Shown here one piece after another: positions 24,906 to 61,435 of a DNA stretch of 64,000 nt. The DNA is taken from positions 1 through 64,000 of the forward strand of contig WHUX01000202.1 in the NCBI GenBank assembly GCA_015179025.1, given 5' to 3'. Source of the DNA: Terfezia claveryi (Eukaryota; Ascomycota; Pezizomycetes; Pezizales; Pezizaceae). The stretch's first letter is position 1. Each line of letters begins with the position of its first letter. The translations under genes were made by a program, and so were the position numbers. The notes under the pieces are model-generated. The model searched no databases and was not told the DNA's origin. It worked only from the letters and a program-made list of their open reading frames with translations.

Positions 24906-24915
24906 GTCTGTATAT

Positions 24916-24945
24916 CTCTACGAGAGGCTTGTGCCAACCAGACTA
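24916..24945 (+). mobile_element. Micro-insertion 1 (30 bp)
   Basis: Ends CTTGTGCCAACCAGACTA; begins with CTCT...AGAG, able to form a small hairpin. Flanked by a perfect 10-bp duplication GTCTGTATAT (24906-24915, 24946-24955). The paralogous copy at about 49225-49245 lacks it. Confidence 0.88.
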
Positions 24946-25049
24946 GTCTGTATATTGTTTCCATGAATCCAGTTGCCAAGCTCGAGGGCGTGTGCCGAGA
25001 CTCATGCATAAAATTCCCGTTATGGCTACTACAGTAAGTACTTATGTAG

Positions 25050-25073
25050 GAGGGTGTTGTGCCAACCAGACTA
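25050..25073 (+). mobile_element. Micro-insertion 2 (24 bp)
   Basis: Ends TTGTGCCAACCAGACTA, flanked by a perfect 10-bp duplication ACTTATGTAG (25040-25049 and 25074-25083). Confidence 0.88.
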
Positions 25074-25470
25074 ACTTATGTAGTACGCCAACACAAAAGA
25101 CTACCAAGATACTCAAATGCTCAATGTCTCCTGCCTCGTCCCAATTGCGGAACCTCAGGAGCCAGTCATCACCAATCCCCGCTTCTTGTCTCATCCTCAC
25201 CCCTAACCCATTCGCGTGTGCTGACTTGGTCTAGGCTGTCCAACTCTTAGAACAACTATGCGCCCACCACTCTGTATTCTGAGGCTGCCTGCCTTGTGCC
25301 CAACGTTGCGACCGCATACCACTTATGCTCCTCATTCCATTCTACGGTCCGTCAGGCCGACCCATTGCCTCTCCCACGGTTGATAAGCAGGGATGCCCAC
25401 CAGCCTACAGCACGTCACCTCCCATACTATGCCATTGCTCCAATCCTTTATCCTCTCATACTACCCATCT

Positions 25471-26100
25471 CAGTCATTATTTCCAATATATCTCTCATAA
25501 TTCTCCTTTTTATTTTAGCCTATTGGCATAATTGTTCAGTTCAATACCCAAAGTTCTGAAGCGCTATATCCCACTGGTGTGTTAAATTCCCTAGAATTCC
25601 CTAGAATTTCACCACTGGATACACCACAGCCGAACAGACCGGCATTTCAAAATACCTAATAAATTGGTCGTTGAACTGGCACTCGGGATTCTTTAGTGGC
25701 ACACAAATGTGAAAGTTCAATAAAGACATAGAGACAGTGAAGGTGCCAATTACTGCATAAAAGAATTGCAAACCACCTCTGTTTCGTTGAATATGAGAAA
25801 TCAAACTCTGCCTCGAATTCAACTATCTAGCCTTTGACGACATATTACATCCCTGGGACTGGCTTGGATATATCATTCTCCCCCTTTGTTTGGGGAGGCA
25901 ATTCAATACTCTTATTCTTAACCGAAGTTATAATGGGGACTGCATCGATCTGGCGTTTTTTCAACAGGGCAGGTCCCTTCCCCCACCCCCCTCTTCTCCA
26001 TCGCGCAAATATATAAACAACGAGACAAAATATAAGAAAAGGCAAAAAAATATAGAATAAAAGACGAAACCTCCTCATCCCAACCCCCACATTGACAGCT
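25471..26100. other. Unassigned, no gene seen
   Basis: Short open frames only. ATTCCCTAGA is tandemly doubled near 25585-25605. Nothing else recognised. Confidence 0.4.
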
Positions 26101-26109
26101 TTCCACAAG

Positions 26110-26560
26110 GCCTTGCACTTACTCTACCTCCAAGTGAGATCTCCCCGTGGATCAGATCACACATCGGCATTACAGACAACGAGATAGCGGATCGAAGGGC
26201 AGTATTTGAATCAGCCCTAGGCCAAATCACGGGCACTCTGAAAGTAGCCACGAAGGGAGGTATCAGGAAACGCTCCAGGAGACACAGGGAAAACGCTCGT
26301 CAACGGAACCAGGATTTTAAAAGAAAAGAGTTGAGTGGAACAGACAAGCACACCTGGGTCCACGGGATTAAGAAAGCAGAGTCCCAAGTGGCTCACAGCA
26401 ACCCCGGAGGGCGGGTACCACATCAAATTCTCCTGTCCAGAATATTCCATATTCAGGGCATATCTAAGATATTTAGGGATTGGAGGACGTGGACGATCCG
26501 ATTGAATCATGGGCTGGAGAAAAGGTCCCACTATACAGAAGTCTGGCCGGTAGAGCCACT
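26110..26560 (+). pseudogene. LINE ORF2 RNase H C-terminal fragment
   Basis: In one plus frame it reads WIRSHIGITDNEIADRRAVF, the RNase H His/Asp segment (compare WVRGHLGIPGNEKADRSA in LINE-1). A basic stretch follows and then ISKIFRDWRTWTIRL. Frame is only partly open, and there is no RT or endonuclease upstream. It represents a LINE family related to but distinct from LINE-1. Confidence 0.7.
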
Positions 26561-26940
26561 CGGATTGACCCGGGTATTTGGGAACTGTTTCTATACTTAT
26601 TTATGTATACTTTTCGTACCACTCGAGTTTCGGTTTTGCATTGAGTTTATTGTTTACGTCATGGTTACGGTTCAGTCTGTTTTCTATCCGAGGAGGGGCT
26701 TGTGCCAACCAGACTAGATCCTGGTCCGTTGTCGTTCGCTTCAATCCCGTTAGGTTCGAGTACAAGGCTAATCGTTTCCCTGAGATTTAGGAGTATTATG
26801 GATAATCTTTCTTATTTATGTGTCGTGTCGTATGCACATTTACCCTTTGCACACGACAGGATGCCTGCAATTAAGGTTAGCGACCTCCCACTGCCTCGTT
26901 ACCGATACTCTAACCCTGCCCTTCACGGACGATATAGCCG
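26561..26940. other. Unassigned segment with micro-insertion core
   Basis: No gene. The micro-insertion core GGGGCTTGTGCCAACCAGACTA ends at 26716. A flanking duplication could not be recognised here, so its 5' limit is open. Confidence 0.4.
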
Positions 26941-27860
26941 CATTAGCAGTTAATCCGGAAGAAAGGGTATTCATCAGCTGAAAGTCCTCGGACACCGGGT
27001 GCTTATTCGCCAAACCGAAGGCCTCTTGCGTCGATGGGCAACTATTAGGCAAGCTCGCTCTAAATGCAAGTCTCAAGGGTCAATATCTTCCCTGGTCACT
27101 TCATTGATTAAATGGCTTAGTGGAATTTGGTCAACGGAACCGGCAACGTGGTGAGGCAAAGCATAGGTGATATTACCATCGCAGGAAAATTCATCAAAGT
27201 CGATGCCGTATATATTCGGAAAATATTTTAAGAGACTGGCTTAGGGAGTTGCATATAAGGATTGGACGGAAGAACAATGGCTTATGGTCAACTGGAGTGT
27301 TGAATGATCTGTTGAAAAATATTCTGGAGTACAGCCTGGTGTTTCTCATACCAGGAAAAAAAAATGGAGGAAGGATTGTATTACTCCCCGGAAAAAGTCG
27401 GGAGCATTTTTCCTGAGCTAGTATGGGCTTGTTTTGCCGGGGCAGAGAAGGGCCCTAGTAGAAATGGTGGAGAGTCAGAGGCTAACCACTAGACAGGTCC
27501 ATCCTAATCCTTTGCGGAATATTTACCAGAGTTCCATCAGGATCACTGGATATTCATGCTAGAAAATGCCCTAATACATACCTGTGAATCAAGGTTAATT
27601 AGTAAGGCTGTCATATCAAGTCATTGAATGGCCACCGTACTCCCCTGACCTTTAATCCGATTGAGCACGCTTGGGTACACCTCAAAGCAGTCTCGTGCCC
27701 TTCAAAGCAAACCTTCACAAGTGCTACCCCAGAATTCATCAGCATGCCTGGTAAGCAACCCAGAAACTATTAAGGCGAAGCTTGCTGATGCTGTCATCCA
27801 TTCCATTGCTGGGAACTGTTGGACCCGGCTAGATCTATGTCTTGTGGACTAGAAGGCGGT
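26941..27860 (+). pseudogene. Tc1/mariner-type transposase remnant
   Basis: Plus-strand pieces in family order: a helix-turn-helix-like start near 26990-27130, then an ASMGLFCRGREGP-like segment near 27420-27470 (normally VWGCFAGNGKGPL), and the hallmark WPPYSPD...NPIEHAWVHLK near 27630-27690, which carries the last catalytic-domain block of Tc1-like enzymes. Stops and frameshifts separate the pieces; no active product. Terminal inverted repeats were not found with confidence. Confidence 0.75.
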
Positions 27861-28216
27861 TAATGAGGCAAAGGAGTGGTATATACCAAATATTAAATTT
27901 ATTGTTTTTTTTTGTACCGCATGTAGACAGTCTGGAGGGGCATAGTGATGAATTTTTATTATATAATTACTTGATAGTTGTGGGAATACAGCGATCGATG
28001 GGACGGACTGGTCAATGGGATACGCTAGAATTATATACAAATTGTATCAGTGCGACTCTTGACCTCAACTGTATTTTGGTTGACTACAACCAGCTTGGGC
28101 TAGGTTCCCATCGACTGGTCAATCTCTGTATTTATCTCAAAAATTGAGGTTATCTCAAGGTCGCGTGGTTGCATAGGACAATCACTTATGGCGTCGAACT
28201 GACTTGCTATACACAG

Positions 28217-28348
28217 TCAGAATTAACTTGCCCTGTCCTGAATCCACCGGGTTTCTGGGTGGCTCATTACGGTCCCCTAACTTTGACCACATGTCATGTA
28301 TTCATTGATTAGGTTATTTCCATTTTTAAAAAAGAAAAAAATTTGAAA
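28217..28348 (+). mobile_element. LINE 3' tail fragment (family 2)
   Basis: AATTAACTTGCCCTGTCCTG...CCACCGGGTTTCTGGGTGG...ATTTTTAAAAAAG. The same ordered blocks end the fragments at 33370-33490 and 44216-44354 and, in reverse, 33990-34100. A-rich 3' end; no clear duplication found. Confidence 0.65.
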
Positions 28349-30460
28349 CACCCCCAAACCAGCAGAAGATGTTCCTCTTCTTTTCAGTACTCGCATTAAA
28401 CTATCTAGGGGAGCGCATCCCTCAGAAGTAACTCGGCTGGATTAAAACTCCTGGGCCGTTCCCTGCTCTGTACCTACTGTACCTACTGTACAAGTCCAGG
28501 TACCCCGAAATAACAAGAACTGCAGCGGATTTCCTTCTCATGCGAAGCTTTGATTGAGATTAATCCCTTCTTTCATGTTGATAACCAGTGACTCTTGACT
28601 CTTCCGACTCTTGTGTTTCTTGTACTGACCAGCGGATTCCCAGGATCTGGGCTTTCCTCTCCTTGTCTTCCTCAATCCTTCATCGGCGTACGTGACCGGC
28701 CTTGTGCTTTGTAGGAGTCGCATGTAGGACTAGGGCCCGTGCTTGCATTTTTTGGTGCTCGGGGGCGCCGGGGGTGATGCTGTTCGTGTGATGTGGAAGG
28801 TCATGCTGGGTGAGCCTCCGATGCCAGTGGTGGTGCCTCTGGCTCCCTCCTCTTGCCTTTGGTCGTCGTCTGTGTGTGGACTGGGGCTCTCCAGGGGGTG
28901 ATAGGGAGACAGAAGAGAGAAGCGGAGGGGCGAAATGGGGGTTGTTAAGTCTTCCTCCTTCCCTTCTTTCTTCCTTTTCCTCCCCTCTTTTTAGACGAGG
29001 GTGCATCTTATATTTGGAAGAAAAATAATTTACAGGGGGGGGTTCCTCAATACTCGCTCCCTATTCCTCTTTTTCCCTCTCTATTTATGGAGAGAGAAAC
29101 GGGAGGGATAGGTTGAGCGGACCAATGGTGCCGGGTTATGGCTTCTCACTTTTTTGTTGTGGTCTGGATTGCCGCCTCCGCGTATGTTCATACTGGGCCT
29201 GGAGTCTGCGTCCCTGTGGATACAGTCGAAGGGGCTTTTGTCCGAGTCTCAGCTTGTGATACTGATGGTAGGGTCGGGAAAATCCGGTCTGAGTGTCTCA
29301 CAGCCGTTCTGAATAAGGCCTCAGGCTCAACCTCGTCGTAGTTGACTTCAACCTCATCTCAAAAGTGATTTCTGTCATGGCATGACGTGGTAGTACCATG
29401 CTCTTAAGCGTCCAGGTCCTTAGAGATGACAGGGTCTCGGTAGCCTGCCCGACGTCTTCTCTTAGTGATTCGGGGTCTGATGGTGGTGGTTGCGAAGGTG
29501 GTGGCGCTGTGGCCTTCTAGGGTCATCCGCATTTCCTATCTCATGATACCAGGCTCTCTGGCGTCCCCAGTCCGAGGATATATACGTCAGGCCCTTGAGG
29601 CTCGGTTATTCCACGTCAGGTGTTTTGGCTTGTAATATAACTTGGATGATTGGCGAATGCCCACCGTGTGGCAATGTGAGGACTAAGCACACGTTTTCCA
29701 ATTTGATTCGCCTTATCATTCCCTCTCAATGACAGTGGTGTATGGTGTTACTCGATACTGTACACCTGAACGGTTTCGATACATATGTGGACAGGTGGGT
29801 TGAGTTGTGTGGAAGAGGTATCATTGATGGCCCCAAGAGAACGGCTTTCAGAGCAACCCTATTAGCAAGTATTCTAAAGGCGATAAGGAAATTGGGAATC
29901 CCACATAGATTCCTCGCCAGGGGTTTTGGCTTTTGATATATCTCAACGTTACCCTCCGGGATCCCTTCTTCAAGAACGTAACTCTTCACCTCCAGTTTCA
30001 TGCGCATACAGCTATAGGTGCCTATCCGTACTCAGGCCGTGTCGGTAGCACAGCGTTGTTACACATACAGGACCTCCAAACTTCGGCCTCCATGAGGCGC
30101 ACCGAGACGAAGCCCTCCTCCGTTCAAGATCTGCCGACCGGAGGCCCACGAGAAGCCTCCCATCCGTGTTGAACAACACGTAGATAGGGCGTCTATCGTA
30201 TGTCTCTGACTGGCTAAATTTCGAAACTGCACAATAGGACTCGGCAATGCTCCTCTTACCGATAACTCAGGGTACTTCGGTATCAACCATACGAGACCGT
30301 CATCCATTGCTGCATACCTCCCCGCCGCATGTGGCTCCGCACGTAGAGGTAGACTCAACCTAACACAGTAGTATCAGCATTTGACGCCCATGAATCGCAG
30401 ACAGTATGCGCAGACAGTATGATGTAATGTCTAACTCATGTCCCTGATACGGGCTCTCTC
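28349..30460. other. No supported gene
   Basis: One minus ORF (28680-29006, 108 aa, Arg/Pro rich, TATA-like CATAAATAG 80 bp upstream) and one plus ORF (29138-29341) exist, but no family is recognised and codon quality is poor. GTACCTACT repeats near 28470-28490. The rest is unassigned. Confidence 0.3.
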
Positions 30461-30492
30461 CACATCCTGTGAGCCGGCTCGTCTCGTGTGCC
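30461..30492. mobile_element. Single terminus of the hAT-type MITE family
   Basis: GAGCCGGCTCGTCTCG followed by TGTGCCCAGGCGTA matches the right end of 46793-47320. The opposite end (TAGGCCTGGGC) was not found upstream, so this is a truncated copy. Confidence 0.6.
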
Positions 30493-31127
30493 CAGGCGTA
30501 ATTACGTGGTACAGAATATTACATGCTGCTTCCAACATGAGGCATCATGATCCCAAAGGCGTTGTGCTGGCCTGTTTCGATATCGGCCGTTTATTTGTTT
30601 GTATAGTGCGGTCAGGGGTTCCTTCGGTGGTGAATTCGGGGAGGTTGGAGGGTTATAAGGGAGACAACGTTAAGTAGCTAGCACTCGCGTTGTAGGTCCT
30701 GGAGAATAGCCATTATCTGGGTAACCACAACCTTCCACAGCCTTAGAGACACACTCCCAGAGCTATACTCAACTTCACATCCATAGAGCCTTTGGGTATA
30801 GGGAGGATAAATATATGGTAGACCCCGCAAAGGCTGAACGTAAACCAATCCTAACTGCACCTGGACGATGCTCCTCTCCTCATGGCCCCCTAACATGGCC
30901 GCATAGGAGTAAGTACTGATTTTTTTTTTTCTAAGAAAAAAATAAAAATAAAAAGCTGCTCCGGCCTTCCTTTGTTGTCTACAGCAGGCTATCGTCAGGA
31001 AAAAACATCTACAGGGGCAGGAGCTGAATCACTTAGACTCTCGACGTTATCTAGATGCTGTGATTGTGATAGAGGCGAGCTTGCTTCAACCTCCGTGGTG
31101 TATTCGTTGGATGCCATATTATCTCTG
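30493..31127. other. Unassigned; contains a LINE-tail-like block
   Basis: CTCATGGCCCCCTAACATGG / CCGCATAGGAGTA at 30877-30913 resembles the end of the LINE 3' UTR in plus orientation, but it is followed by a T-run rather than A, so the insertion boundary is unclear. Nothing else recognised. Confidence 0.4.
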
Positions 31128-31141
31128 TGAAGTCTAGTCAT

Positions 31142-31175: not shown

Positions 31176-31242
31176 TGAAGTCTAGTCATATCATTAGCGG
31201 ATAAATATATCTCGGAGATATGTCCCAGTAGTACACTTACTT

Positions 31243-31252
31243 TAGTCTGGTT
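31243..31252 (-). mobile_element. Micro-insertion 3 (10 bp)
   Basis: TAGTCTGGTT between perfect 9-bp duplications CACTTACTT (31234-31242 and 31253-31261). Confidence 0.8.
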
Positions 31253-31261
31253 CACTTACTT

Positions 31262-32106: not shown

Positions 32107-32186
32107 TCTGCACTATAGGGTGTCAGATACAATACTTGGGGGGACCATGGATATTTATGGTTAGGCAAACTGTGGACTGAATTTAC

Positions 32187-33236: not shown

Positions 33237-33238
33237 AA

Positions 33239-33343: not shown

Positions 33344-33369
33344 ATTTTGCCACCAAGCTTATATATAGC

Positions 33370-35040: not shown

Positions 35041-36715
35041 TGACTAGATAATCAGCGCCTGCACATATCATTGGCATCTTGACACTCACCATAGTATGTC
35101 CTGGAAGTAACAATGCTTCCGCGGTAAATGGGAACACCAACAAATTAATGGTCATTTATAGCTCTTTGGTTCAAAGTCTCTAATCGGGATAATTGAGCAC
35201 TGGGGCAGGTACCGCTCCTCCCCTGGATGTAATTGCTACCTGATATAGTGACATGAGTTGTTTCCCTCTTGCATCTGTTACTGTTATGTATGATGTTTTG
35301 TGCTGAAAATATGGTAAATAGCGATGCCCCTGGAGGTACTATGGCATTAAGAGATCATCAATGTAGGAATAATGCTGAAACAAATATTGCTCGCACACCA
35401 ATGGCATCTCTAAAGGGTTCCGCACAGAAAAGTCGTTTTCTAGAGTTAAATTGAACCATATTGTGGACAGTGCTGTTTCGTACCCTGTCTCAAAGCTCTC
35501 ATGCCATTCATCTTGCCAACGGAAGATTGTCACTATTAGCTGTTCTGGGCTATGGTGTATTGTGCAGGGAGCCCAGTGCCGTCTCACATCGTTCTGACCA
35601 CGGCAATTAGCATTGTCTTAAGTTATTGGGGATTACATACCATATCATAGTCTGGTTGGCACAACGACCTCTGAAAGAGACCATATCGTAACTTCCGGAA
35701 GTATACCACTCCGTGATCAACTTCCCAAGCTCATTGAGGGGGGTACAGTCATAAATGTTGTATCCCAGTATCTGTGGATAATCCACACAGCCAAAACGTT
35801 AGTCTCGAACCCGACCGCTCCTACCAAAACGTGTATTTTGTATGTTTTCATCAAGGCCGCTCGAGGTACGGTTGTTTTCGTGTAGGCACACTTTTCAATG
35901 CTCTTTCGCCAACCGCCTAGTAGTCTCATGCCAAGTAGGGCGTTTTTGTCCCCGCTTTGTGTTGACTCGTCAGCCTGAATAATAGGCAAATGACCGTAGC
36001 TCATGGATTACTATCAATTGAATGCAATTTTAGATCCTACGTACAGTCAAATGTGTTTTCTGGACGATTTCATGAAAATATATCTGGTATAGGTGTCACT
36101 TGCCCCTGATTTCAGCTCTGGTCGTGTATTGATTCACGAAGTTTAACTCCTACCAAAGCAATGCTGACTCCCGTCGGCGTTCATTGGGGGTTTGAATTTC
36201 CATGGAAGTTGGGAGAGGTTCGAGGAAGTCGTAAGGGATCTTCAATCGTGTGTCTTGCTCTACAGATGAGGTGATATCAAAGGGACTTAAAGAAGACTCT
36301 TCGTGGCTCCTACGGTTTTCACAACATTACCTGATGAAGCAGATCCATTTTGTAAAACGCTTTATGTTATATTTTCAAATATGACAACGATATCACAAAG
36401 TAAAGAACCTATTTCGACACTCCAATCCTATATCCACCTCAATCAAGAGAAAACAAACACCGATTACCGGTGAACCCACTTCCGTCCCTTATAGACAGCA
36501 AGATGTGATGAAACGAAACAATAGTTATAGCAAGAGAGCTCTCAAGTAGACACCTTCCACTCAGCGAACGATGTTGCCAGCGTACAGAATGAGAACATAG
36601 CAAAGGAAATCACAAAATATCCCCCGCTTCATACCGCAAGCGAGCATTATTTCTCACTTCACTCACTTTCCGAAATGTTATATATCAAATCATCTCAATT
36701 CATCCTCAACCCTGT
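35041..36715. other. No supported gene; one micro-insertion
   Basis: Minus ORFs at 35339-35587 and 35717-36004 (82 and 95 aa) show no recognisable family and were not accepted as genes. The region after 36000 is the downstream flank of the three-exon gene. Confidence 0.4.
35647..35679 (-). mobile_element. Micro-insertion 4 (33 bp)
   Basis: Reads ATAGTCTGGTTGGCACAA then CGACCTCTGAAAGAG, with the CTCT/AGAG hairpin seen in copy 1. Flanked by 8-bp ACCATATC (35639-35646 and 35680-35687). Confidence 0.85.
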
Positions 36716-38870: not shown

Positions 38871-38883
38871 AGTCACTTATCAA

Positions 38884-38897
38884 TAGTCTGGTTGGCA
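38884..38897 (-). mobile_element. Micro-insertion 5 (14 bp)
   Basis: TAGTCTGGTTGGCA between perfect 10-bp duplications CACTTATCAA (38874-38883 and 38898-38907). Confidence 0.88.
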
Positions 38898-38940
38898 CAC
38901 TTATCAACACACAACATCAGGCCCAAGTAATACTATATAG

Positions 38941-38952
38941 TAGTCTGGCTTG
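38941..38952 (-). mobile_element. Micro-insertion 6 (12 bp)
   Basis: TAGTCTGGCTTG between perfect 9-bp duplications ACTATATAG (38932-38940 and 38953-38961). Confidence 0.85.
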
Positions 38953-39135
38953 ACTATATAGGGCCTCATTATTAAGGTTAACAGAAGCCCCTATTATTTT
39001 AATTACTTAATTCCTCCATCATGGCTTTTTATTCTATAAGGTTTTGAACATGATGTGGCTAGCTTACATGCGTTAGCTTCCTCTATGTCTTTTTGCTGTA
39101 TTTCCTAAATTGGCGTCATGAATAGCAATTCCGGC

Positions 39136-39145
39136 TTAGTCTGGT
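39136..39145 (-). mobile_element. Micro-insertion 7 (10 bp)
   Basis: TTAGTCTGGT between perfect 8-bp duplications ATTCCGGC (39128-39135 and 39146-39153). Confidence 0.78.
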
Positions 39146-39153
39146 ATTCCGGC

Positions 39154-39684
39154 ATGTAATATACCCAGCTCGCCTTCTACCTGTATTTATTGCTCTAATG
39201 AGTGAAGCTTGCACTCCTGCATCTTCCGCTACCCAGTGAAGTCTGCCTTGCACTGCATTACCATCTACAACGTCAAAGATTACTGTATGCGGAGTTTTGC
39301 CATTCGGGGTAAAAGTAAAGTATTTGTAGGAACAAGCTTTCGCGATTCACAAATATCAAACAAATAGTCAAAAACAGCTTATTAAACAATTTGGGTCATG
39401 CATGCGGTTGTCCCATGTAGTTATGCATGTTACTGTAACACAACTTGCCACCGATCGCATAACCCTGGAACAAAGGCGATGAGAGCTAAAAACACTTCTC
39501 CCTTTAAATTCCATAGGAAATTCCTACGTCCCCTGACCATAAACAGAAATTCGAGTTCGAGTACCGCTGGGGATAACAATTGTCTGCATGCTGTTTCTTA
39601 TCAACAAAGAAGGGAGTAAATGTCGTGCTGCGAAATTTAGGCTATGGTATATATAATAAAAGTTTATGATTAGAAAGTATATTA
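39154..39684. other. Upstream flank of tRNA-Leu, no gene seen
   Basis: AT-rich, no supported ORF. Confidence 0.4.
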
Positions 39685-39776
39685 GGAAGGATGGCCGAGT
39701 GGTTATGGCGCTGTGTTCAGGTTGATAGCCAGTATCGCAGTGGGAAACCGCGTGGGTTCGATCCCCACTCCTTTCA
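39685..39776 (+). tRNA. tRNA-Leu(CAG) with 13-nt intron
   Basis: Acceptor GGAAGGA pairs with TCCTTTC (one G-U) with discriminator A. A-box TGGCCGAGTGG, anticodon stem CTGTG/CGCAG, loop TTCAG-G with anticodon CAG at 39718-39720. The intron is 39722-39734, after position 37. A long variable arm (GG-GAAA-CC) is typical of Leu. T-arm is GTGGG-TTCGATC-CCCAC. A T-rich pol III terminator follows. It decodes CUG as Leu. Confidence 0.93.
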
Positions 39777-39781
39777 CTAAA

Positions 39782-39799: not shown

Positions 39800-41599
39800 T
39801 TCCCCCTCTCCAAAAAGTTACCCGAATAGGAAATAGCGTGTAGCCTTGTTTTAAGCTGCCATTCTATCAGTTCATTACTAGAGAAGGGCAAATATAGTCT
39901 CGACCCCGACCGCTCCATGCGGAATTTTGTGTACATCAATAATTATTCAAATAAATTGTAGTTTTCTGAGTGACTAATTTCTCGAGAACGTTGAGAATGT
40001 CAGCGCGTAAGGTGGATCAGCTACCGAACAGTACGTCTTCCTCCGATTATCCCTCCCTTAGTAAATGGATTTTTACCATTGCTGTGGAAGGTTGGTTCCA
40101 AATATATTCAACTATAGTACAAAAAAAGACTATTAACCAAAACGGAAAGACTCTAGAAGAGGAAACTGAAACAAGAAAAGACAAAACCGCAAAGTACCTT
40201 GGCGATAGAAAAACTACGTCACAATTCTGGAGGCCCCCATTTCACACCATGTATTCCTAAAACAGCTTCACCCACACAATCTCGTCTCCCCTTCATTGTC
40301 AGTCACGTCTGGAATATCATCCATCAAAAGCAATTCCCGCGGGCTGGATTGGGGTGACATAGTTCTGCCACTATTGTTGGGTGGAAAGGAAACTCTGCAA
40401 CGGGGTCGGAGGGGACAAGCTTTCTTCGATGATTTGCACGATCTTCAGTTGTTTAAGACACTCTCTTGGGCTTCACATTCTCGGGGATATTTTGTCTTGG
40501 ATCTAACCAGGCCTGTTGTATTCGAGAAACTCTGGGGGTATAGCCTGTAAATTAGTGTAATTAAAGAGATAGCCGAAGTTCCGAAGGCGAGCGATTTAAA
40601 GTTATAAGCGATGTACGCCGGGGGATATGTTGCCCTAAGTAAAGAAGTGGGTCGCGTAAGTGCTCCAGAGGGGGGGGGGGGGGGGGGATACGCATATGTA
40701 TCCCATAGATTATATCACCGAAGCATCTACCCGCTGTAGTCAGTGAGGCGGGTCCAGCCAATAGATCTTTTTCTCCAGGTATTTTTGTCTTGATCAATTA
40801 ATTCTAATCCCAAGTACTGAGCATATACGAAGTTAAAAATGAAGTGTAATCGTGGTCCTTTAATCAAGGGGTAATATGATGCAGAATGGAAGGTTTGAAT
40901 AAACCAGTAAGGCCGAAAATGGGGGGAGCCCACTGGCAGTTATGTTACCTAGTACCTCCTATGAATTTGAAATTGATATGTTTCCTCCGCAGTCGTCAAA
41001 TGCCGCAGGCCTAAGCTGTTGGGTATATCGAAGGGATTCTAATCCCTATAGAGGCAAAACCGAGTAATGCGTCATTAAAAAGAAAAGGCACAACGATCCC
41101 AAAGTACGTTGGGTATAATTTTAATCTTTTGCCTAAGTGTAACAGGTGCAGGTTATTTCTGAGAGGGACTATAACGTTTCCACCCTGCATTAAACCCAGG
41201 ACTTCAACGCATATAGGGAAAATAGCCTTTACAGGCCTACCAATAAGGAAAAAAAAAAAGCATAAACAGAAATATGTGGGAAATATCTGTGGGAGAGTCA
41301 ATCTAAGGATGCTAATGAAAATCTATAAACCCAATAAACAGAATAGATTCTCACAGGACACGTTCGTTGGTCACAAGTTAAACGCAATAATCCAGGGGGA
41401 ACGGGGTTTGTAGAGGGTCCATGCATCTCGGCGAACCTGATCAGTAGTAGGCTTTATCTACTTTGGAATGTGGGTTCGGCATAGGTGGTATACGGCTTTC
41501 TAAAATAGTTGCAAAAGCAAGGAGTAAACGGTATTGGGAGTAGATGAATACTACTTCCAACATCAGAAACAGCTTTAAGGCCTAAAACTCGTTACCAAG
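39800..41599. other. No supported gene; poly(G) tract
   Basis: Several short ORFs, none with a family. A G-run of about 18 at 40669-40687 stands out. No transposon recognised. Confidence 0.4.
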
Positions 41600-42587: not shown

Positions 42588-42606
42588 TAGTCTGGTTGCA
42601 CACTAC
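42588..42606 (-). mobile_element. Micro-insertion 8 (degenerate, about 19 bp)
   Basis: TAGTCTGGTTGCACACTAC between TAGTTACA (42580-42587) and TAGTTAGC (42607-42614); two mismatches in the duplication suggest an older copy. Confidence 0.55.
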
Positions 42607-46639: not shown

Positions 46640-47520
46640 CCTCTATTTTGGGTACATGCTCATGTGATGTGAACTCAGTTCCATGGTTTTGACACTATGC
46701 AAGAGTGCCAGGAAATGTCCTCAGACTCTGCTCAATCGCATTGTTCCAACCTAATACTTAGACATATATCTGCATCATGTATGTCTCCAATTTAGGCCTG
46801 GGCACGAGCCGGCTCGCGAGAATTGCAGGAGTAAATAGATAACTGCGTACGCTACATATCTGTATAGGTCATGGAAAAAATTAAAGACGCAGAAATATGG
46901 AAGATACAGATATAAACAGACGTGGAAATGGACAGAATCAATTTCAACCTTCATCGTCCACCTAAAGTCGGCTGCGAAATCGGACGATACATAGGACTGC
47001 AATATTGTCGTAACCGAGCAAATGGTAGGTTTCAACATAGCGAGATACAGCGGTGATTTCATCAATTTGTGCAGTTTCCTCCTCTTGTGTTGGTAGGCGT
47101 GTTTGGTTATGTCGGAAATGGAGCGATTATAGTTGTAAATTTTGAAGGGAGGAAATGAACTCCAGGACTGCCGGAGGAGGTTGTGTTATTGAGAAAAAAA
47201 AAAAGAGGAAAGGGTGGAACTGCAACGCATTTTGAAGATTTCCACTCACCGGGTACCTTCGGTATTTCGCGGTTACAACGACCTCCGGGCTCGAGCCGGC
47301 TCGGCTCGTGCCCAGGCGTACTCCAATTAGGCACATATCTGGATACCCCCCTTGAATGAATTATCCAGGGCTTCTAGGCACTTCAAAAAGTATTCTCCAA
47401 AGTCGTGCGCTTCTTTTGAGCCCCCTAGTATCCAATTCCAATGATAACTCATTGAGTTATGCGCTACAGCAGTTTTGTTGCATATCCCGGTCGTGTTGCA
47501 TAACCCCGTCACATGCTGTA
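46640..47520. repeat. Dispersed repeat R, copy 1 (interrupted)
   Basis: This is paralogous to 61070-61435 (GGAAATGTNCTCAGACTCTG, GGCACATATCTGGATACC, GTGTTGCATAACCCCGTCAC in the same order) but interrupted by the hAT-type element at 46793-47320. A short minus frame (47327-47620) shares a near-identical peptide with 61205-61450. Nature unknown; could be an LTR. Confidence 0.75.
46793..47320. mobile_element. 528-bp non-autonomous hAT-type element
   Basis: TAGGCCTGGGCACGAGCCGG at the left, CCGGCTCGGCTCGTGCCC plus AGGCGTA at the right. Perfect 8-bp duplication CTCCAATT (46785-46792 and 47321-47328). The related repeat at 61200-61240 shows the uninterrupted site. Internal sequence has no transposase; a 96-aa minus ORF (46775-47065) is unrecognised. 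Confidence 0.88.
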
Positions 47521-49215: not shown

Positions 49216-49930
49216 CAGACAGACATTGTAGGTTGTAAAGTATATTGTTTTTATGATTTCTCTCTCATGTCTTTTATGTATGGCTACTTACTACATACAG
49301 CTTCTCTACTAAACATCTCTTGCGCCTGGTGTGGACGTCCTGTGCTGGCCCAAATCGAAGACACTCCTCCTAGATGGTGCTCGAGGTTACTATACCAGAT
49401 GGACAGAAATACAACCTCAACACCTGTAATGGGCCTTTGTCAAATACGGTAGACTTCTTGTATTTTGAAAGTGTGGTAGGACCTGTATTATATTCTAAAC
49501 CCTGGGTCGGAGAAAGCAACAGTAAAAGGGAGACTAACAGCGAAAACAACAGCCAACCAACACAAACAGACCATTAATAACTCAAGACCCTCAATTGTTC
49601 AATGTCTCTTCCTGCGTCGTCCCAATTGTGATTCGGCAGAACTTCAAGAGCAGGTCATTACCAATCCCCACTTCTCGTCTCATGCCCACCCCCAATACAT
49701 TCGCGTGTGCTGCCCCCGGAGGACTTGGCCTAGGCTGTCCAACTCTTAGGACAACTATGCGCCCCACGCCCTGTGTACTCTGAGGCTGCCTACCTTGTGG
49801 CCAACGTTTCGACCGTTTACCACTTACGCGTCTCATTCCATTGTACGGTCCTTCAGGCCGTACCCATCGCTCACTCGTTGGCCATAGAATTCCCCTGCCT
49901 CTCCCACGGTTGGTAAGCAGGGCGCCAGAT
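48946..49930. repeat. Segmental duplication, copy B
   Basis: Paralogue of 24617-25470: the tRNA-like block is nearly identical, and the 49600-49930 part matches 25110-25410. It has neither micro-insertion 1 nor 2. Confidence 0.8.
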
Positions 49931-56141: not shown

Positions 56142-56186
56142 TGGGATGTTTTCCTCTAAATACCGTTCTAAAGCAATCTCTTCCTC

Positions 56187-56189
56187 CTA
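56187..56189 (-). other. In-frame TAG in pol
   Basis: A single amber codon between protease and RT (IYKMT-stop-EEEIA). Consistent with one CAG-to-TAG or AAG-to-TAG change; without readthrough it would block RT and integrase synthesis. Confidence 0.85.
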
Positions 56190-56900
56190 GGTCATTTTGT
56201 AGATTGGGCCATTCGGTACTTTAGCCTTTGGGTCATTGAGCGGAATAGAGTGATCCCAGGGTTTATGCTTTGGCAATCTAGAAGCTTGTTCTGCAGAGAA
56301 TACCTGCGCGTATTGGGTATAGTGGCTAGTTGCGTCAATTATAAGCAGAATCTCGCTGTGATCTAGGGGTTCAGCCTCCAAGTCTAACGTCATGATGGTG
56401 GGTATGTTGTATATCTTGCAGGGTATTATATAGCTGGGTGTCGCCGCACTGGGTATTGTAGAGCTGGGTATTGCCGCGGTGGGTATCGTAGAGCTGGGTA
56501 TTGCCGCGGTGGGTATCGTAGTACTTTCTCTTTTATTCCAACATTCTAACCTTGACTCCGGGGTATTAATTACTAAATCATTTTCCTTCAACCAAGACAA
56601 TCCCAAGATAACATCCCTTTTTCCAATATCCAATACTTCTGCGTCCAATGAGAATTTGTGGCTTATACCGGGTATCGAGAAGGTAGTGTTTGCCACAAAT
56701 TTACCACCTTTTAGCTTGGTTCCATCCCCTTGAGACACCAACACGTGGTTCTTTCTTTTCCAGACTCCTAGTCTTTTAGCAACTTTGGAGCCTACTATAG
56801 GCGCAGAAGCCCCGCAATCCACAATGGCTTCTGTTTCTAGCCCAGCAATTAATATCGGTACTGTAAGTAAAGGTTCGTGTCTTGGGGTTCGGCCTATCAT
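56187..56900 (-). CDS. Chromovirus D pol N-terminus: aspartic protease
   Basis: It lies in the same frame as the RT-integrase part. Protease core is TEAIVDCGASAPIVGSKVAK, where the usual Asp-Ser/Thr-Gly triad is Asp-Cys-Gly, and VILGLSWLKENDLVI. A linker contains tandem STIPTAAIPS repeats (30-bp DNA repeats at about 56440-56520). It ends NGPIYKMT then TAG, followed by EEEIALERYLEENIPVGK, the normal start of RT. The stop is therefore a late nonsense change. The frame is open upstream to the frameshift site. Confidence 0.88.
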   Translation of the reverse strand: MIGRTPRHEPLLTVPILIAGLETEAIVDCGASAPIVGSKVAKRLGVWKRKNHVLVSQGDGTKLKGGKFVANTTFSIPGISHKFSLDAEVLDIGKRDVILGLSWLKENDLVINTPESRLECWNKRESTTIPTAAIPSSTIPTAAIPSSTIPSAATPSYIIPCKIYNIPTIMTLDLEAEPLDHSEILLIIDATSHYTQYAQVFSAEQASRLPKHKPWDHSIPLNDPKAKVPNGPIYKMT

Positions 56901-56917
56901 CGTTTTGGTCGAACCCC

Positions 56918-58045
56918 TTAGTCTTTTCCCGAATCTGAATCTCCTTCATCTTGTTGCTGATTTTCTTCGGATTTAAATTCAGGGTCAGAGTCTAGTTGAG
57001 TTATTCGTAGTATACCGGTGTCCGTCCTTGCCTTTTTTGCTGCGGGAGCAGAGACATCTAATGATTTGGGTGGGTTGCCAATGAATGGCTTGGGCGGGTT
57101 CGTTGGGGGTGGGGTTTGTCGGTAACGGATACTCTGGCAATCAGCAATTCTATGTCCAGTCTTACCACATTTGAGGCACTGGTTTTCTTTCTTCCTCTTA
57201 TTGATGGTATCCGTAGTCACCTCTGATTGGTCTGACGAACGTTGAGTTGACCGATCTATGCGGGATCGATCGGAATATGTCCGCTTTGTGGGCTGATTTT
57301 TTGAGTTTTGTTCAGCCTGGGCGATGTCCATTTGGACTAATTTCTTCAACCATTTGGTTGGCTGGTCTCTGAGGTCCTCGTAATGAGTCATCTTCGATCG
57401 GAGCCGAGGCTTAATCCCCATAAGGATTATTCGAATGAGAAGGGTTTGAGGTATCTCCGCATATGCATTCAACCGATCCATGGTGGCGAGATAATCTTGG
57501 ACGGCTCCGGTCTGCTTAAGCTCATAGATCTGTCTGTGCGCATTATCAGCTTGGTAATGATCAGAAAAATGTGCTAAGAGCGCTTCTTTTGCTTCCTCCC
57601 ATGTCTTCCACTTAGCCTCGTTCGGCTTCCACCATGAGAGCGCCGAACCCTTCATCGACATTCCCGCTATTACTATCTTATCCTCTTCTGCTTTTACTCT
57701 TCTCAGCTTGAAGTATCCTTCTAAGTGGAACAGAAAATGTTCAAGTTCTGTCCGGTCTCCGAAGAATTTTTCTGGCGGGCGGATGTTGAAGGACACATTT
57801 TGACTGGATGGGGTGGGACTTTGCCGCCTGGTTGGAGGGTCAGGGGTTGGGTGGGCGGGAGTTCGCCGGTCTGTGGTTGCGCCTCTCTCTGGGATTCTTG
57901 GTGTTGCAGAACCCGATTCCAGAGTACTAACTCTGGCTTCCATTGCTTTGAGCTGAGCAATGAGTACTGAGTTGATCTGTGTGAGGGAGGCGATCGTATT
58001 TTGGGGCTCTGCTGAGCTCTCGTTGGCATGGTCAATACTCGACAT
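56918..58045 (-). CDS. Chromovirus D gag
   Basis: Start chosen at ATG 58045 (MSSIDHANESSAEPQ), just inside the 5' LTR edge; the longer frame upstream runs into the LTR. 375 aa. A coiled-coil-like start (INSVLIAQLKAMEARVSTLE), then the capsid region (PPEKFFGDRTELEHFLFHLE, GSALSWWKP, FSDHYQADNA), and a CCHC knuckle CLKCGKTGHRIADC near residue 315. An acidic tail ends DSDSGKD. The last codons overlap the pol frame, and a slippery heptamer is two codons before the stop. Confidence 0.92.
   Translation of the reverse strand: MSSIDHANESSAEPQNTIASLTQINSVLIAQLKAMEARVSTLESGSATPRIPERGATTDRRTPAHPTPDPPTRRQSPTPSSQNVSFNIRPPEKFFGDRTELEHFLFHLEGYFKLRRVKAEEDKIVIAGMSMKGSALSWWKPNEAKWKTWEEAKEALLAHFSDHYQADNAHRQIYELKQTGAVQDYLATMDRLNAYAEIPQTLLIRIILMGIKPRLRSKMTHYEDLRDQPTKWLKKLVQMDIAQAEQNSKNQPTKRTYSDRSRIDRSTQRSSDQSEVTTDTINKRKKENQCLKCGKTGHRIADCQSIRYRQTPPPTNPPKPFIGNPPKSLDVSAPAAKKARTDTGILRITQLDSDPEFKSEENQQQDEGDSDSGKD
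56924..56930 (-). promoter_or_regulatory. -1 frameshift slippery site, G GGA AAA
   Basis: In gag frame it is TCG GGA AAA GAC TAA. Slipping back one gives GGG AAA AGA CTA, exactly the frame of the protease ORF, which is open through this point. It fits the X XXY YYZ rule. Confidence 0.8.
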
Positions 58046-58100
58046 TTTTTCCGCTATCTTTTTAGGTATCGGTACGTCCAAGATTGAGGATGCCGGAGAA

Positions 58101-58109
58101 AAGCACTGT
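58101..58109 (-). promoter_or_regulatory. Candidate self-priming primer binding site
   Basis: ACAGTGCTT on the minus strand starts 2 nt inside the 5' LTR edge. Its complement AAGCACTGT is within the LTR (58277-58285), about 43 nt after the TATA box, near where the transcript should begin. Tf1-type elements prime from their own RNA 5' end in this way. Confidence 0.45.
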
Positions 58110-58111
58110 AA

Positions 58112-58815
58112 TGTTAGGGGCGGACAGTCTAGTCCGGGCCAATTATGAGGTAAAGAGCTTAGCGAGCTTCTAGTGGCGTTTAGTGGAGCTAGCACAACAG
58201 GGACGGGTGTGCGAGGGTGACGAAAGTGTAGAGATCAAGGAGATATAGTGCTTAGGCTTTCGAAGAAGTATACAAGACAGTGCTTGGGTTCTGCCCTTTC
58301 TATCTAGGTAGCAGAGGCCCCTTATATAGACATCTCGGGGATCGTCCTACTCCCCCCCCACATGCCTCCGGCATGGCCTTCCTAAGCCTCGGAGACATGA
58401 ATGCAAATCAATGACGAAGCAGCTTGGGAATCAATGACGGAGCAGCTTGAAAATCAATGATTGCAAATCATTGATTGGAAATAAGGGAAACGGAGACATG
58501 CTTGCAAATCAACAACGTAGACATCAGCGGCTTGGAAATCAATGATTGGAAATCGAATATGCCTTGAACCGGTCCTCCGTAAGAAGCAGTTATCCCATAA
58601 GCCAATACGACCTAGCCCCAACCCTCTTGGTCATCGCTAGAACGGTGCACACACTTCCTTGTCCCGGCCAGTCTCTCTACTCAACCCATAGGTATGAGCT
58701 AGAGGGCCCATTGCTAGACCTGCTGTGGGTGATCAATCCACGTCGTTGGCCTCAGCGGCTGTCGGCTTCGGTTTTCCGCCTCTGCGTAGACCACCCTCAC
58801 GTGAGATTCATAACA
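58112..58815 (-). repeat. 5' LTR of chromovirus D
   Basis: 704 bp. TATA box CTATATAAGG on the minus strand at about 58321-58330. Followed by target duplication ATTCC. Confidence 0.93.
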
Positions 58816-58922
58816 ATTCCCTCCCAAGTTGAAGGCTATCTAAGACATACGGTAATCCTGCTTCAAAATATCCGACGTAGCGTATTCAAGATTACATATT
58901 TCCGAAAACAATATTCTAAGAA

Positions 58923-59627
58923 ATGGCCATCGCAACCATAATGTTTCCCGAAGGCTGCACCCCCAAAAGCCATGCGAATGGCGGCGGCAATATGGCTAAA
59001 CCTCAGAGTATCCTGCCTTCTGAAATGGAGGTCCATACTCCAAGGTGCTCCAGAGAACGCAGGTTGTTCGGGCAAACCGATACAATTCTTCTCCACCAGC
59101 CTCATAATCTCTCTGATCCCAAAGTTGAAGCCCCCTATGGTGCCAAACCCTCCGGGACCCTGTTTCCCCCCAACACCAAAGACAATTCCCCTTTCGACGG
59201 GCACTCCTTCAACATCGAATACCTCACCTCCATCGAGTCCCGCTTCCTCCGCGACGGGTACTCCGTGTACATCGAGTACGCCAACTTGATTATCAAGTAT
59301 GGGGCCCAAAAGGGCCTCGTATATGAAATCAAGAAGGGAGAAGAGATGAAGAAAGGTTTACTTCAGGCGGCGTGGGAGCACTATCGTGCTTGGGCGGAGA
59401 AGGTTAGGCTTATGAGGGAGAAGGTGAGGGGAGGTGAGATTTGGAAGGAAGGGGGTATGGAGGAGGCCTGGAATGTGGAACGGGAGATGGGTGAGTTATG
59501 CAGGCAGATGGCGCTGATTGATTGGCTCAGGGAGGCGCAGGAGTTGGGACATCCGGCGAGTCGGGTTTTTGGGGCGCCGATGGGAGAATTGTCAGAGGTC
59601 ATGCCATTTGTAAACTGCTATTTGTGA
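58923..59627 (+). CDS. Uncharacterised 234-aa protein, promoter displaced
   Basis: Open from ATG 58923 (AAGAAATGGCC context) to the stop at 59627. The first 90 residues are Pro/His/Cys-containing. The rest is a soluble, probably helical protein: FNIEYLTSIESRFLRDGYSV, IEYANLIIKYGAQKGLVYEI, then a long Lys/Glu/Arg helix (WEHYRAWAEKVRLMREKVRG). An antisense ORF over the first part is judged a shadow. No family recognised. Chromovirus D is inserted 108 bp upstream of the ATG, probably in the 5' UTR. Confidence 0.6.
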   Translation: MAIATIMFPEGCTPKSHANGGGNMAKPQSILPSEMEVHTPRCSRERRLFGQTDTILLHQPHNLSDPKVEAPYGAKPSGTLFPPNTKDNSPFDGHSFNIEYLTSIESRFLRDGYSVYIEYANLIIKYGAQKGLVYEIKKGEEMKKGLLQAAWEHYRAWAEKVRLMREKVRGGEIWKEGGMEEAWNVEREMGELCRQMALIDWLREAQELGHPASRVFGAPMGELSEVMPFVNCYL

Positions 59628-61069
59628 AAGAAATAGAATGTCCTAGGCGAATCATTTGGTTTAAATGTTTTTCTATCCCCCTTTCCCCCCCCCCACTCTT
59701 ATTTTGCACATTATTTTCTAGTTTGGGGTGGTTTCCTGTATTGGGGAGGGGGGGGGGGGGGGAAGGTAAAATATAATTATTGAGGCATTACAACTGAAAA
59801 GATGTTTTCAAACCACTTGATTTATTAGTTCTATTTCTCTTTCCTTAAGCCTAGGAGCGTTATTGCAGACAGTAGATATTTTTTTTTTTTTACACCTACA
59901 AATGAAAGACTCGAGACGTTACGCACATGCCGACAGTTCAGTTACAGTTACGTACTTTGCTGAATAGTTTTTACTAAATTATCTGAATAATATCAAATGT
60001 ACCTATTGTTTCACCCCCCCCAAAAAAAACCCCCACTTTTCCTTCCCCTCGCGTCAATTGTATCTCTGCCTGCCCCTTCCCCTCCCCCAACAACCCACCA
60101 GTAACGTGTCTTGACCAGTGGTCGACCGACCGTCTTCACCCACTATCAGCACGGGGCCTTTAGTGTACAATAAAATATATCTATCCCCAGCATCTCTCTC
60201 TCAGGATTTCCCCAAGGTGGTGGATGTATATAGCAACGTTACCCTGAAATGAATGGTAGGCAGTGCAACATATTGGCTGAACGTCTAAACGCCAGCAGTT
60301 CTTATCAGATTTGGATGGTCCTCTACTCACAACGGTCACACAAGTCCATAGAATTTGTAAACCACCCAGGAGCCCTGGATTATGGAGCTAATGGAGTTAT
60401 CTTGTTATTGGCTATGCCCAATATTTTCATATCTAGGTGGGAGTAAACTCTGAACTATGCAATCAGGCAGGGTCTCAGTATATCCCATTGTCCATCCATA
60501 TAGTGTAAAGTAAATAGATAAGCTTACGGCCTCAATGGAGCATACAGTACTCATGATTTAAACCTGTATAATCTGGAGCAGGGGGGGTCGCAGATTTCTA
60601 GGAACATATCGACCAAAACAGCTCAGGGCAAGCACCTAGGGGCTCAGAAGAGTATATTCATTGAGGACATTCTATTTAGGGTCCCACATATAGCAATCAG
60701 TGAGAACTGGACAAGGTCGCTCCAGGCCCCCCACCCCTTTCAAACCGGCATAAACAATAGTACAGCACAATATAACTAAGCAAATATTAAGATTTCAATA
60801 GATGAGGTAAATTTATGTGAGAAAGGAACTCTGTGAGCCAATCTTCAGCTGGAGGGTTGAGAGAGTAGACACCTGTCGACTCGTAGGTCGTATTACGTAG
60901 AATAGGTAAATCCAGGCCGAAGTATATTAATAATAGCTTATATGAAGTGCCTACTATTTGGATTTCATGCTCTTAGTCTTGTAATTCTGTTAAAATATTA
61001 AACTCTTCACTTAGACTGTTTTGGGTAGACTTGCGCTTCGGACTTACTCAACACCCTCACCCTCCTGCT
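59628..61069. other. No gene; homopolymer and C/G tracts
   Basis: C9 near 59690, a G-run of about 16 near 59746-59762, T12 near 59880, C8/A8/C5 near 60014-60035. A 65-aa plus ORF at 60249-60446 is not supported. Confidence 0.4.
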
Positions 61070-61435
61070 TTGGGTGCATGCTCATATATTACCCATCATA
61101 CCGCGAGGTATAAACTTGTTTCCATGGTTTTCACGCTATAAAAGAGGGCCAGGAAATGTACTCAGACTCTGCTCAATGGCATTGTTCCAACTTAATTATC
61201 CGCATCATGTATGTCCATAATTAGGCACATATCTGGATACCCCCCTTGTAGTCTGGTTGGCCCCCTTGAATGAATTACCCAGGGCTCCTAGGCACTTCAA
61301 AAAGTATTCTCCAAAGTCGTGCGCTTCTTTTGAGCCCCCTAGTATCCAATTCCAATGATAACTTATTGAGTTATGCGCTACAGCCGTTTTGTTGCATATC
61401 CCGGTCGTGTTGCATAACCCCGTCACATGCTGTAT
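61070..61435. repeat. Dispersed repeat R, copy 2
   Basis: Paralogue of 46640-47520. It lacks the hAT-type element and carries micro-insertion 10. CTATAAAAGAGGG at 61136-61148 is TATA-like. Confidence 0.75.
61249..61260 (-). mobile_element. Micro-insertion 10 (12 bp), empty site known
   Basis: TAGTCTGGTTGG between CCCCCTTG (61241-61248) and CCCCCTTG (61261-61268). The paralogue at 47346-47354 reads CCCCCCTTGAATGAA with no insert and a single copy of the site. Confidence 0.9.

Follow-up and report, generated by a model that had tools for sequence, protein, structure and literature searches.

The short insertions dispersed through the window (the 64-kb stretch of DNA analysed) are, on balance, probably one-sided excision scars, i.e., terminal remnants of short inverted-repeat DNA transposons, as judged from the sequence. 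This reading is supported by a fixed terminus, a 9-bp target-site duplication (TSD), empty paralogous sites, two-ended copies, and remnants of opposite ends in two paralogs. Against it, two-ended units number in the tens and core matches in the thousands.

Core motif and copies in the window

Within the window, TAGTCTGGTT has 8 exact matches (0.14 expected) and TAGTCTGG has 12 copies (2.49 expected). A genome-wide search with the 16-base core TAGTCTGGTTGGCACA, allowing up to one mismatch, gave 3702 matches, and the reversed control gave none, so the core occurs above chance frequency. The sister set, TAGTCTCG, behaves in the same way as the main set. The exact 17-mer had no match in the literature text searched, and a search at the level of titles and the beginnings of abstracts returned no description of such a fragment family. 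An Rfam scan of the window at the gathering threshold found one tRNA and nothing else.

Rescoring of the window required a 9-bp duplication with no more than one mismatch and an insert of 8–41 bp. Nine of the 17 TAGTCT[G/C]G cores scored passed. These include all eight sites named earlier (24945, 25073, 31243, 35648, 38884, 38941, 39137 and 61249) and a ninth that had been overlooked, a sister-family TAGTCTCG copy at 35800. Their inserts are 31, 25, 10, 32, 15, 12, 9, 11 and 24 bp long, in that order; the lengths first reported agree to 1–2 bp, the offset reflecting the assignment of ambiguous bases. The putative scars, and two weak members of the family, are:

24906–24954, minus strand: putative scar of 31 bp (24915–24945), TAGTCTGGTTGGCACAAGCCTCTCGTAGAGA on the minus strand, with exact 9-bp TATACAGAC on both sides
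25040–25082, minus strand: putative scar of 25 bp (25049–25073), with exact TACATAAGT on both sides
26704–26716, minus strand: weak member, core TAGTCTGGTTGGC, running on as ACAAGCCCC; no recognisable duplication
31234–31261, plus strand: putative scar of 10 bp (31243–31252), with exact CACTTACTT on both sides
35639–35688, plus strand: putative scar of 32 bp (35648–35679), with a CTCT/AGAG hairpin at its end; TSD ACCATATCA/ACCATATCG
35791–35832, plus strand: putative sister-family scar of 24 bp (35800–35823), TAGTCTCGAACCCGACCGCTCCTA, with exact CCAAAACGT on both sides
38875–38907, plus strand: putative scar of 15 bp (38884–38898), with exact ACTTATCAA on both sides
38932–38961, plus strand: putative scar of 12 bp (38941–38952), TAGTCTGGCTTG, with exact ACTATATAG on both sides
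39128–39154, plus strand: putative scar of 9 bp (39137–39145); TSD ATTCCGGCT/ATTCCGGCA
42588–42605, plus strand: weak member, core TAGTCTGGTTGCAC; no recognisable duplication
61240–61268, plus strand: putative scar of 11 bp (61249–61259); TSD CCCCCCTTG/GCCCCCTTG

Three weaker sites had also been proposed; cores are indeed present at 26716 and 42588, but 26716, 42588 and 50336 all fail the duplication test. The reported absence of the family from 1–24.6 kb holds, with zero passing cores there, and is only mildly significant (about 0.01 by an arithmetic estimate assuming uniform placement of n = 9 copies).

Target-site duplications and fragment anatomy

Flanking repeats were compared with shuffled controls, a check that the initial annotation had suggested. 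A duplication was found at 58 of 112 cores and at 5, 6, 3, 4 and 8 in five shuffles. The flanking duplications are real, and the first description was right in that the copies are dispersed, bring their own duplications, and are constant at one end and variable at the other. The longest exact repeat was 9 bp at 24 cores, 10 bp at 9, 8 bp at 9, 7 bp at 6, 6 bp at 4 and 12 bp at 2, a sharp peak at 9 bp. A tenth base matches in 18 of 68 cases, the chance level, and most 10-bp duplications can be put down to chance extension of 9; some 8-bp duplications are likely to be genuine. Each site does carry its own direct repeat, as first noted, but the broad variability of 8–10 bp was overstated. The remaining 54 cores lack a duplication by the shuffle-controlled test; some of these are long diverged, and others may be chance cores or the products of different events.

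In the copies inspected, the fixed end adjoins the duplication directly, with no tail. Fragment lengths are bimodal (9–15 and 24–38 bp), and none of 68 falls at 16–23 bp, so that the truncation is not graded, as had been thought, but divided into two length classes. The inner ends of the long class fall at a small hairpin that differs by subfamily (CCTCTCGTAGAGAGG, CCTCCTGTTGGAGG and CTCTGAAAGAG). Exact tandem duplications without an insert were found 8 times at 9 bp, twice at 8 bp and three times at 10 bp, an excess suggestive of complete element removal.

Targets show no clear sequence preference and no palindromic symmetry, and these properties were dropped as a means of discriminating between readings. 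Family pieces lie inside 12 of 68 targets, compared with 5.3% of random 33-mers, and core motifs alone inside 9 of 68, compared with 2.2%. Fragments also occur in series at one 9-mer, in L045, L095 and probably L048; L095 reads TSD-15 bp-TSD-24 bp-TSD, and L045 has three inserts, the third with an altered end.

Two-ended copies and a longer element

Copies with two inverted termini, which the initial annotation had named as the mark of an ordinary DNA transposon, are present: a strict pattern matched 34 places, and its control matched none. Among the 33 distinct TAGTCTGG...CCAGACTA units read, 21 carry a duplication (18 of 9 bp and 3 of 8 bp), against 0.68 by shuffling; the 18 include L095, which is two fragments in series, and L062, which lies inside family sequence. 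The duplication-bearing units span 38–54 bp, and several two-ended copies come close to being perfect palindromes about 50 bp long. Inverted termini on both sides are a property of these units, while the fragments themselves retain one end. In L084 and L088, the apparent two-ended unit is one fragment nested in another. An identical 49-bp unit occurs in L061 and L083 with differing flanks, the duplication being exact in L083 and not passing in L061; an identical 40-bp unit in L068 and L086, again with differing flanks, has an exact duplication in both.

A 2.3-kb inverted-repeat element (L048, 1848–4167) has TAGTCTGG at both ends; its inverted repeats are long, and tandem repeats lie inside it. 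Apart from this element, a search of a 264-kb sample for long elements bounded by TAG...CTA and flanked by a 9-bp TSD found nothing convincing.

Paralogous sites

The putative scar at 24915–24945 has a single-copy paralogous site near 49236. That at 61249–61259 has an empty paralog within the window, near 47340, and seven paralogs elsewhere are 20–21 bp shorter across the aligned stretch, as expected of an empty site. No intact element was seen at any scar site among the paralogs examined.

Within one repeat family, the shared 9-bp site AAGGTATTC looks empty in 32 of 40 scored paralogs (75 candidates). At this site, L041 retains TAGTCTGG...GACTA, and L103 retains ...CCAGACTA. The flanks of L041 and L103 show 15 differences, and those of L041 and the empty L107 show 7. 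Since L041 and L103 are not nearest neighbours, room must be left for two independent hotspot hits or for precise excision on more than one occasion, and the opposite-end case could represent a hotspot hit twice. An unrelated A-tailed insertion in L105 at the same AAGGTATTC junction suggests a hotspot. The L108 sequence, AAGGTATGTATTC, could have arisen by plain duplication of GTAT and need not be a pair of trimmed TSDs.

The site at L048 9719 has an empty paralog in L046; the remaining copies are uninformative because they align only up to the insertion point. At L031 5604, a 10-bp fragment is common to L111–L113, TAGTC with a shortened duplication is found in L110 and a stretch of L041, and L109 looks empty. 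The TAGTC class is explained as well by plain deletion as by a second scar.

Origin of the fragments

The narrow 9-bp duplication together with the two-ended copies reads as the signature of a DNA transposase, with a TSD of Mutator-like size. The initial annotation had itself offered, as an alternative, relics of a MULE-type DNA element that keep one end. In the scar reading, a transposase supplied elsewhere would insert an element that is small, in many cases nearly palindromic, and bounded by inverted TAGTCT[G/C]G... termini, producing a TSD of 9 bp and perhaps sometimes 8 bp, and would later remove it. Removal would usually leave the outermost 9–15 or 24–38 bp of one end, with the target duplicate of the opposite side following directly. 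The fragments would originate at excision, with staggered cleavage or single-strand overhangs allowing one end only to survive; ligation of two unequal overhangs might form a heteroduplex whose resolution to either strand gives TSD-end-TSD. Thousands of scars would reflect many past excisions, and the genome would then be a countable record of these, every one marked by a duplication. Their constant anatomy (single end, two length classes, flush joining) constrains both the cutting by the putative transposase and the way in which host end-joining resolves overhangs. The identical two-ended units could have been formed twice through the same join. The void at 16–23 bp is not predicted by the scar reading, and the fragments in series go beyond scars alone.

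The main rival, less probable but a serious candidate, is one-ended transposition, in which a transposase joins a single end of 9–35 bp to a target cut with a 9-nt stagger. The end piece would be broken or hairpin-tipped and its free side filled in and sealed, so that the fragments are the insertions themselves. Such transposition is reportedly known for bacterial Tn3-type elements. It would account for the excess of core matches over two-ended units by about two orders of magnitude (3702 vs. 34 strict), for the serial fragments at the same 9-mer (L095, L045), for targets enriched in the family's own pieces, and for those two-ended units that are nested fragments (L084, L088). However, there are two-ended units that have 9-bp TSDs on the outside and appear mobile, there is no known reservoir of free short ends, and the L041 insert closes with GACTA, which looks like a trace of a second end. 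That a eukaryotic transposase integrates free 9–35 bp ends (the longer ones hairpin-tipped), makes a 9-bp duplication each time and re-uses its own sites is advanced only tentatively. If the fragments were inserted as such, one-ended transposition exists in eukaryotes, and if free single ends integrate as units, they would be among the smallest mobile insertions known.

It is unlikely that one arm of a palindromic mini-element was deleted after insertion, by slippage during replication or by cleavage of a hairpin, with no transposase involved. Near-perfect palindromes of about 50 bp are unstable structures, and several two-ended copies have this form, but the deletion must stop at the border between element and TSD in about half of the cores (58 of 112 with a full second 9-mer, which is not proof, as deletions running into the TSD escape the duplication test). 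The inner join of filler-free short copies overlaps the TSD by 1–2 bases in 8 of 20, and this scarcity of microhomology argues against slippage deletion.

The main reading of the initial annotation, in which a short two-hairpin RNA ending ...CCAACCAGACUA underwent target-primed reverse transcription, was rejected as very improbable: it fits a constant end on one side with a variable other, and inner ends of the long class that coincide with the subfamily-specific hairpin, but variable-length TSDs would be expected where 9 bp was found, two-ended copies carry the same duplication, no tail separates duplication and fixed end in the copies inspected, the 2.3-kb inverted-repeat element has the same ends, and the LINE part of the window (1–24.6 kb) is without any TSD-flanked core. 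TSD-flanked, one-ended micro-insertions of varied length are no evidence for reverse transcription. A Helitron-like reading (hairpin near the fixed 3′ end) was ruled out by the TSDs, Helitron insertion producing no target duplication.

Comparison with known systems

Tc1/mariner footprints consist of a short remnant of either end between two target duplications, the remnant being 2–3 nt and the duplication TA. The fragments are likewise one-end remnants between duplications, but with 9–38 bp and a 9-bp TSD. They share a constant and a variable end with 5′-truncated SINE and LINE copies, and differ from these in their narrow TSD length, absence of a tail and two-ended copies. The usual P-element footprint retains pieces of both ends. 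P transposase is described as making a 17-nt staggered cut inside the end, and P-type TSDs as 8 bp (PMC10983969). A cut of this kind would leave about 15 bp of an end at the donor, a point of likeness; here, one end alone is found, and the TSD is mostly 9 rather than 8 bp, with a minority of 8 possible.

Muta1, a Mutator-like element studied in yeast, is described as having 8–9-bp TSDs without sequence preference, and its excision as mostly precise where TSDs are present, with up to 13 bp of the terminal inverted repeat (TIR) 'occasionally' left (PMC5225508). The fragments resemble MULEs and MITEs such as Muta1 in their 9-bp, sometimes 8-bp, TSD, lack of evident target preference, inverted ends and partial TIR remnant. 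Unlike in MULEs, the scars would be up to 38 bp long and overwhelmingly one-sided, with thousands of core matches, and the duplication-bearing two-ended units are only 38–54 bp.

In its inverted and tandem repeats, L048 1848–4167 resembles Foldback elements (Mutator/Foldback, e.g., Tm1), unlike the fragments, which lack such repeats and are linked to it solely by the shared terminus. Counted by domain alone, the genome has 21 matches to PF10551 (MULE) and at least 150 to PF05699 (hAT).

Abundance and target duplications

The family is real and genome-wide. The window (C116:1-64000) holds eight copies of TAGTCTGGTT, against 0.14 in shuffled sequence, and the genome searched (72.6 Mb, 794 contigs) holds 3702 matches to TAGTCTGGTTGGCACA with at most one mismatch, against none for the pattern read backwards. 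The sequence read amounted to 264 kb, made up of the window and 20 stretches of 10 kb (17 picked because they contained a match), together with thirty additional loci of 3 kb; stretches outside the window carry L numbers. The source is probably a fungus: at least 120 relatives were listed for the window's Ty3/gypsy polymerase, and the organisms named among them are Morchella, a member of the Tremellales, Absidia and a single frog entry, which was disregarded.

At 58 of 112 distinct TAGTCTGG cores the upstream 9-mer recurs downstream (≤1 mismatch, within 200 bp), compared to 5, 6, 3, 4 and 8 in five shuffles of the upstream 9-mers; the remaining 54 show no duplication by this test. In the window, nine of the 17 TAGTCT[G/C]G cores are duplicated within 41 bp, namely all eight sites proposed in the initial annotation and one further site. 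The longest exact repeat beside the fixed end is 9 bp at 24 cores, 10 bp at nine, 8 bp at nine, 7 bp at six, 6 bp at four and 12 bp at two, while each of three shuffles gave 2–4 cores altogether. When both core types were pooled, 68 core positions passed (≤1 mismatch, insert 8–41 bp), two of them being the faces of a single 25-bp two-ended unit (L020). At the tenth base 18 of the 68 agree, which is the chance rate of one quarter, and the duplication is therefore 9 bp, allowing for a minority of 8 bp. No clear base preference was seen at target positions of these 68 cores, nor was any palindromic symmetry of the targets found.

Exact 9-bp tandem duplications lacking an insert occur eight times in the 264 kb, against two of 8 bp and three of 10 bp. 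This surplus is suggestive only, because two of the eight are near neighbours and two are in the vicinity of other small repeats. In two copies (L046 4451 and L037 3286) an additional four bases, TAAG, separate the duplication from TAGTCTGG, suggesting that the fixed end may be extendable.

Fragment lengths and a sister family

The inserts fall into two length classes, 9–15 bp (n = 30) and 24–38 bp (n = 38), with none of the 68 at 16–23 bp; the probability of this void is about 6e-11 if 67 lengths are uniform over 9–35. The long class stops in or just past a small inverted repeat of subfamily-specific sequence, e.g., CCTCTCGTAGAGAGG, CCTCCTGTTGGAGG or CTCTGAAAGAG. Short TAGTCTGG copies match the core consensus up to the join in 20 of 24 cases (eight of the 20 with a 1–2-base overlap with the duplication). 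The other four depart by 2–4 bases at the inner end, and at least one of these (window 38941) fits a variant subfamily rather than filler.

Among TAGTCTNN octamers in the 264-kb sample, a clear association with duplications was found for TAGTCTGG (52/105) and TAGTCTCG (13/29), the third-ranked being TAGTCTAC (3/14). Copies of TAGTCTCG share both length classes (11–13 and 24–32 bp), and their long-class pattern has 534 genome matches versus one when reversed. Two ends of this sister family lie in the window:

35800-35823, sister-family end TAGTCTCGAACCCGACCGCTCC, with an exact 9-bp duplication
39895-39918, sister-family end TAGTCTCGACCCCGACCGCTCC, without a 9-bp duplication

Empty sites

Related sites that are empty show the fragments to be insertions. 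The fragment at 61249 is missing from a related copy in the window near 47340, and seven paralogs elsewhere are 20–21 bp shorter over the aligned stretch, fitting an empty site. The 24945 fragment is missing near 49236, and for the one at L048 9719 the corresponding site in L046 is empty.

Two-ended units and a 2.3-kb element

Inverted family ends, TAGTCTGGTTGGCACA...TGTGCCAACCAGACTA at 0–30 bases apart, occur at 34 places in the genome (control, 0). Forty stretches were read around such places, or around matches to one of them; five lacked a recognisable unit and two were duplicates, leaving 33 distinct units. Taking the best end pair per stretch, the outer ends are flanked by duplications of 9 bp in 18 units and 8 bp in three, against 0.68 expected by shuffling; one of the 18 (L095) consists of two fragments in series, and another unit (L062) sits within family sequence. 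Several of the 12 failing units are one fragment nested in another (L084, L088, L101). An identical 49-bp unit is present in L061 and L083, and an identical 40-bp unit in L068 and L086, in each case with differing flanks, so that small two-ended units may be mobile as such, unless an identical join arose twice. Of these four occurrences, all but the one in L061, which fails the test, are flanked by exact duplications.

A 2.3-kb element (L048 1848-4167) is bounded on either side by TAGTCTGG and combines long inverted repeats with tandem repeats in its interior (CTCGAGCATAAGCTAATACAGACA); it contains no long open frames and is flanked by a duplication matching at 7/9 positions. Tandem repeats resembling its own (TCAGACATCTCCGGCATGAGCAT) fill 63679-64000 of the window. 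Searching with 160 bp from the element's terminus returned 14 matches, including its own two ends. Of the other 12, three retain TAGTCTGGTTGCAC before TACCC(C)TC; three (L074, L075, L076) start exactly at TACCCC with unrelated sequence outside, lacking the 14-bp TAGTCTGGTTGCAC that precedes it in other copies; one starts exactly at TACCCT, again beside unrelated sequence; one has a partial prefix, and four are diverged. The boundary that separates the fragment from the remainder is thus seen again from either side, which looks like the result of a cut at that position.

Origin of the fragments

The fragments are DNA-transposon ends. Their narrow 9-bp duplication and inverted ends point to a transposase and speak against the target-primed reverse transcription favoured by the initial annotation, so a retroposon identity was dropped. 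In domain searches of the genome, MULE domains matched 21 times and hAT domains at least 150 times, none of the matches being linked to the family's ends.

Most likely, the fragments are one-sided excision scars of two-ended elements. Staggered cleavage within the transposon ends would leave a single-stranded piece of the element's own end on each flank, both pieces would be ligated to the opposite recessed strand, and replication or repair of the presumed heteroduplex would retain the end piece of one strand or the other. Such a course would yield short duplication–end–duplication structures whose borders are flush, and would make two-ended scars rare. A 17-nt stagger is described for P transposase (PMC10983969). 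For the Mutator-like Muta1, with 8–9-bp duplications, up to 13 bp of the end are reported to remain occasionally in yeast, where about 90% of excisions are precise if target duplications are present (PMC5225508). Fillers and deletions are described at rice excision sites (PMC5023962).

One site carries either end. The fragment at L041 7585 lies inside a repeat with 75 candidate copies, of which 40 were scored. L041 reads AAGGTATTC-[31 bp, starting TAGTCTGG and ending GACTA]-AAGGTATTC, and L103 reads AAGGTATTC-[28 bp ending CCAGACTA]-AAGGTATTC, i.e., the identical 9-mer with the opposite end, both of the AAGCCCC subfamily. In 30 of the 40 scored copies the left and right match coordinates fit an empty site (27 with a 9–13-base overlap, three otherwise), and two copies read directly (L106, L107) have the 9-mer once; three scored copies have no left match and five are altered. 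The simplest account of these sequences would be a two-ended element once present here and resolved to either end. The flanks, however, differ at 15 positions between L041 and L103 and at seven between L041 and the empty L107. As flanks do not group the two, either precise excisions occurred among the empty copies or insertion took place here twice; this discordance is the main weakness of the excision account. A 32-bp tandem duplication in L104 stops at this site, and L108 reads AAGGTATGTATTC here, which may be a trimmed duplication pair or a simple GTAT duplication. At this junction L105 carries an A-tailed insert of unrelated sequence, about 75 bp in size and flanked by a long repeat, which resembles a short retroposon and suggests that the site may be an insertion hotspot.

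The length void at 16–23 bp is also among the facts that do not fit excision scars. One-ended transposition, in which fragments insert as such, is a serious rival, since fragments lie in series at single 9-mers and targets are rich in family pieces (12 of 68, versus 5.3% of random 33-mers from the same sample). The series, in which different fragments alternate with three or more copies of a single duplication, are duplication-15 bp-duplication-24 bp-duplication in L095, a row of three inserts at L045 8323-8420 of which the last has an altered end, and probably L048 990-1870; both the series and the enrichment could mean direct insertion.

Other elements nearby

L048 ~1027-1838, another inverted-repeat element (GGGGTATTCAAAGTTA...) with TA-like borders, which seems to be inserted within one of the duplications
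Window 61870-62195, a separate element with inverted repeats (AAGTAATAGTCATATTGGGAAATCGTAG...), about 320 bp long and containing repeats of 39 bp
Window 39685-39777, 93-bp tRNA-like gene (Rfam tRNA, 42.6 bits), given no definite anticodon by ARAGORN and with a possible intron
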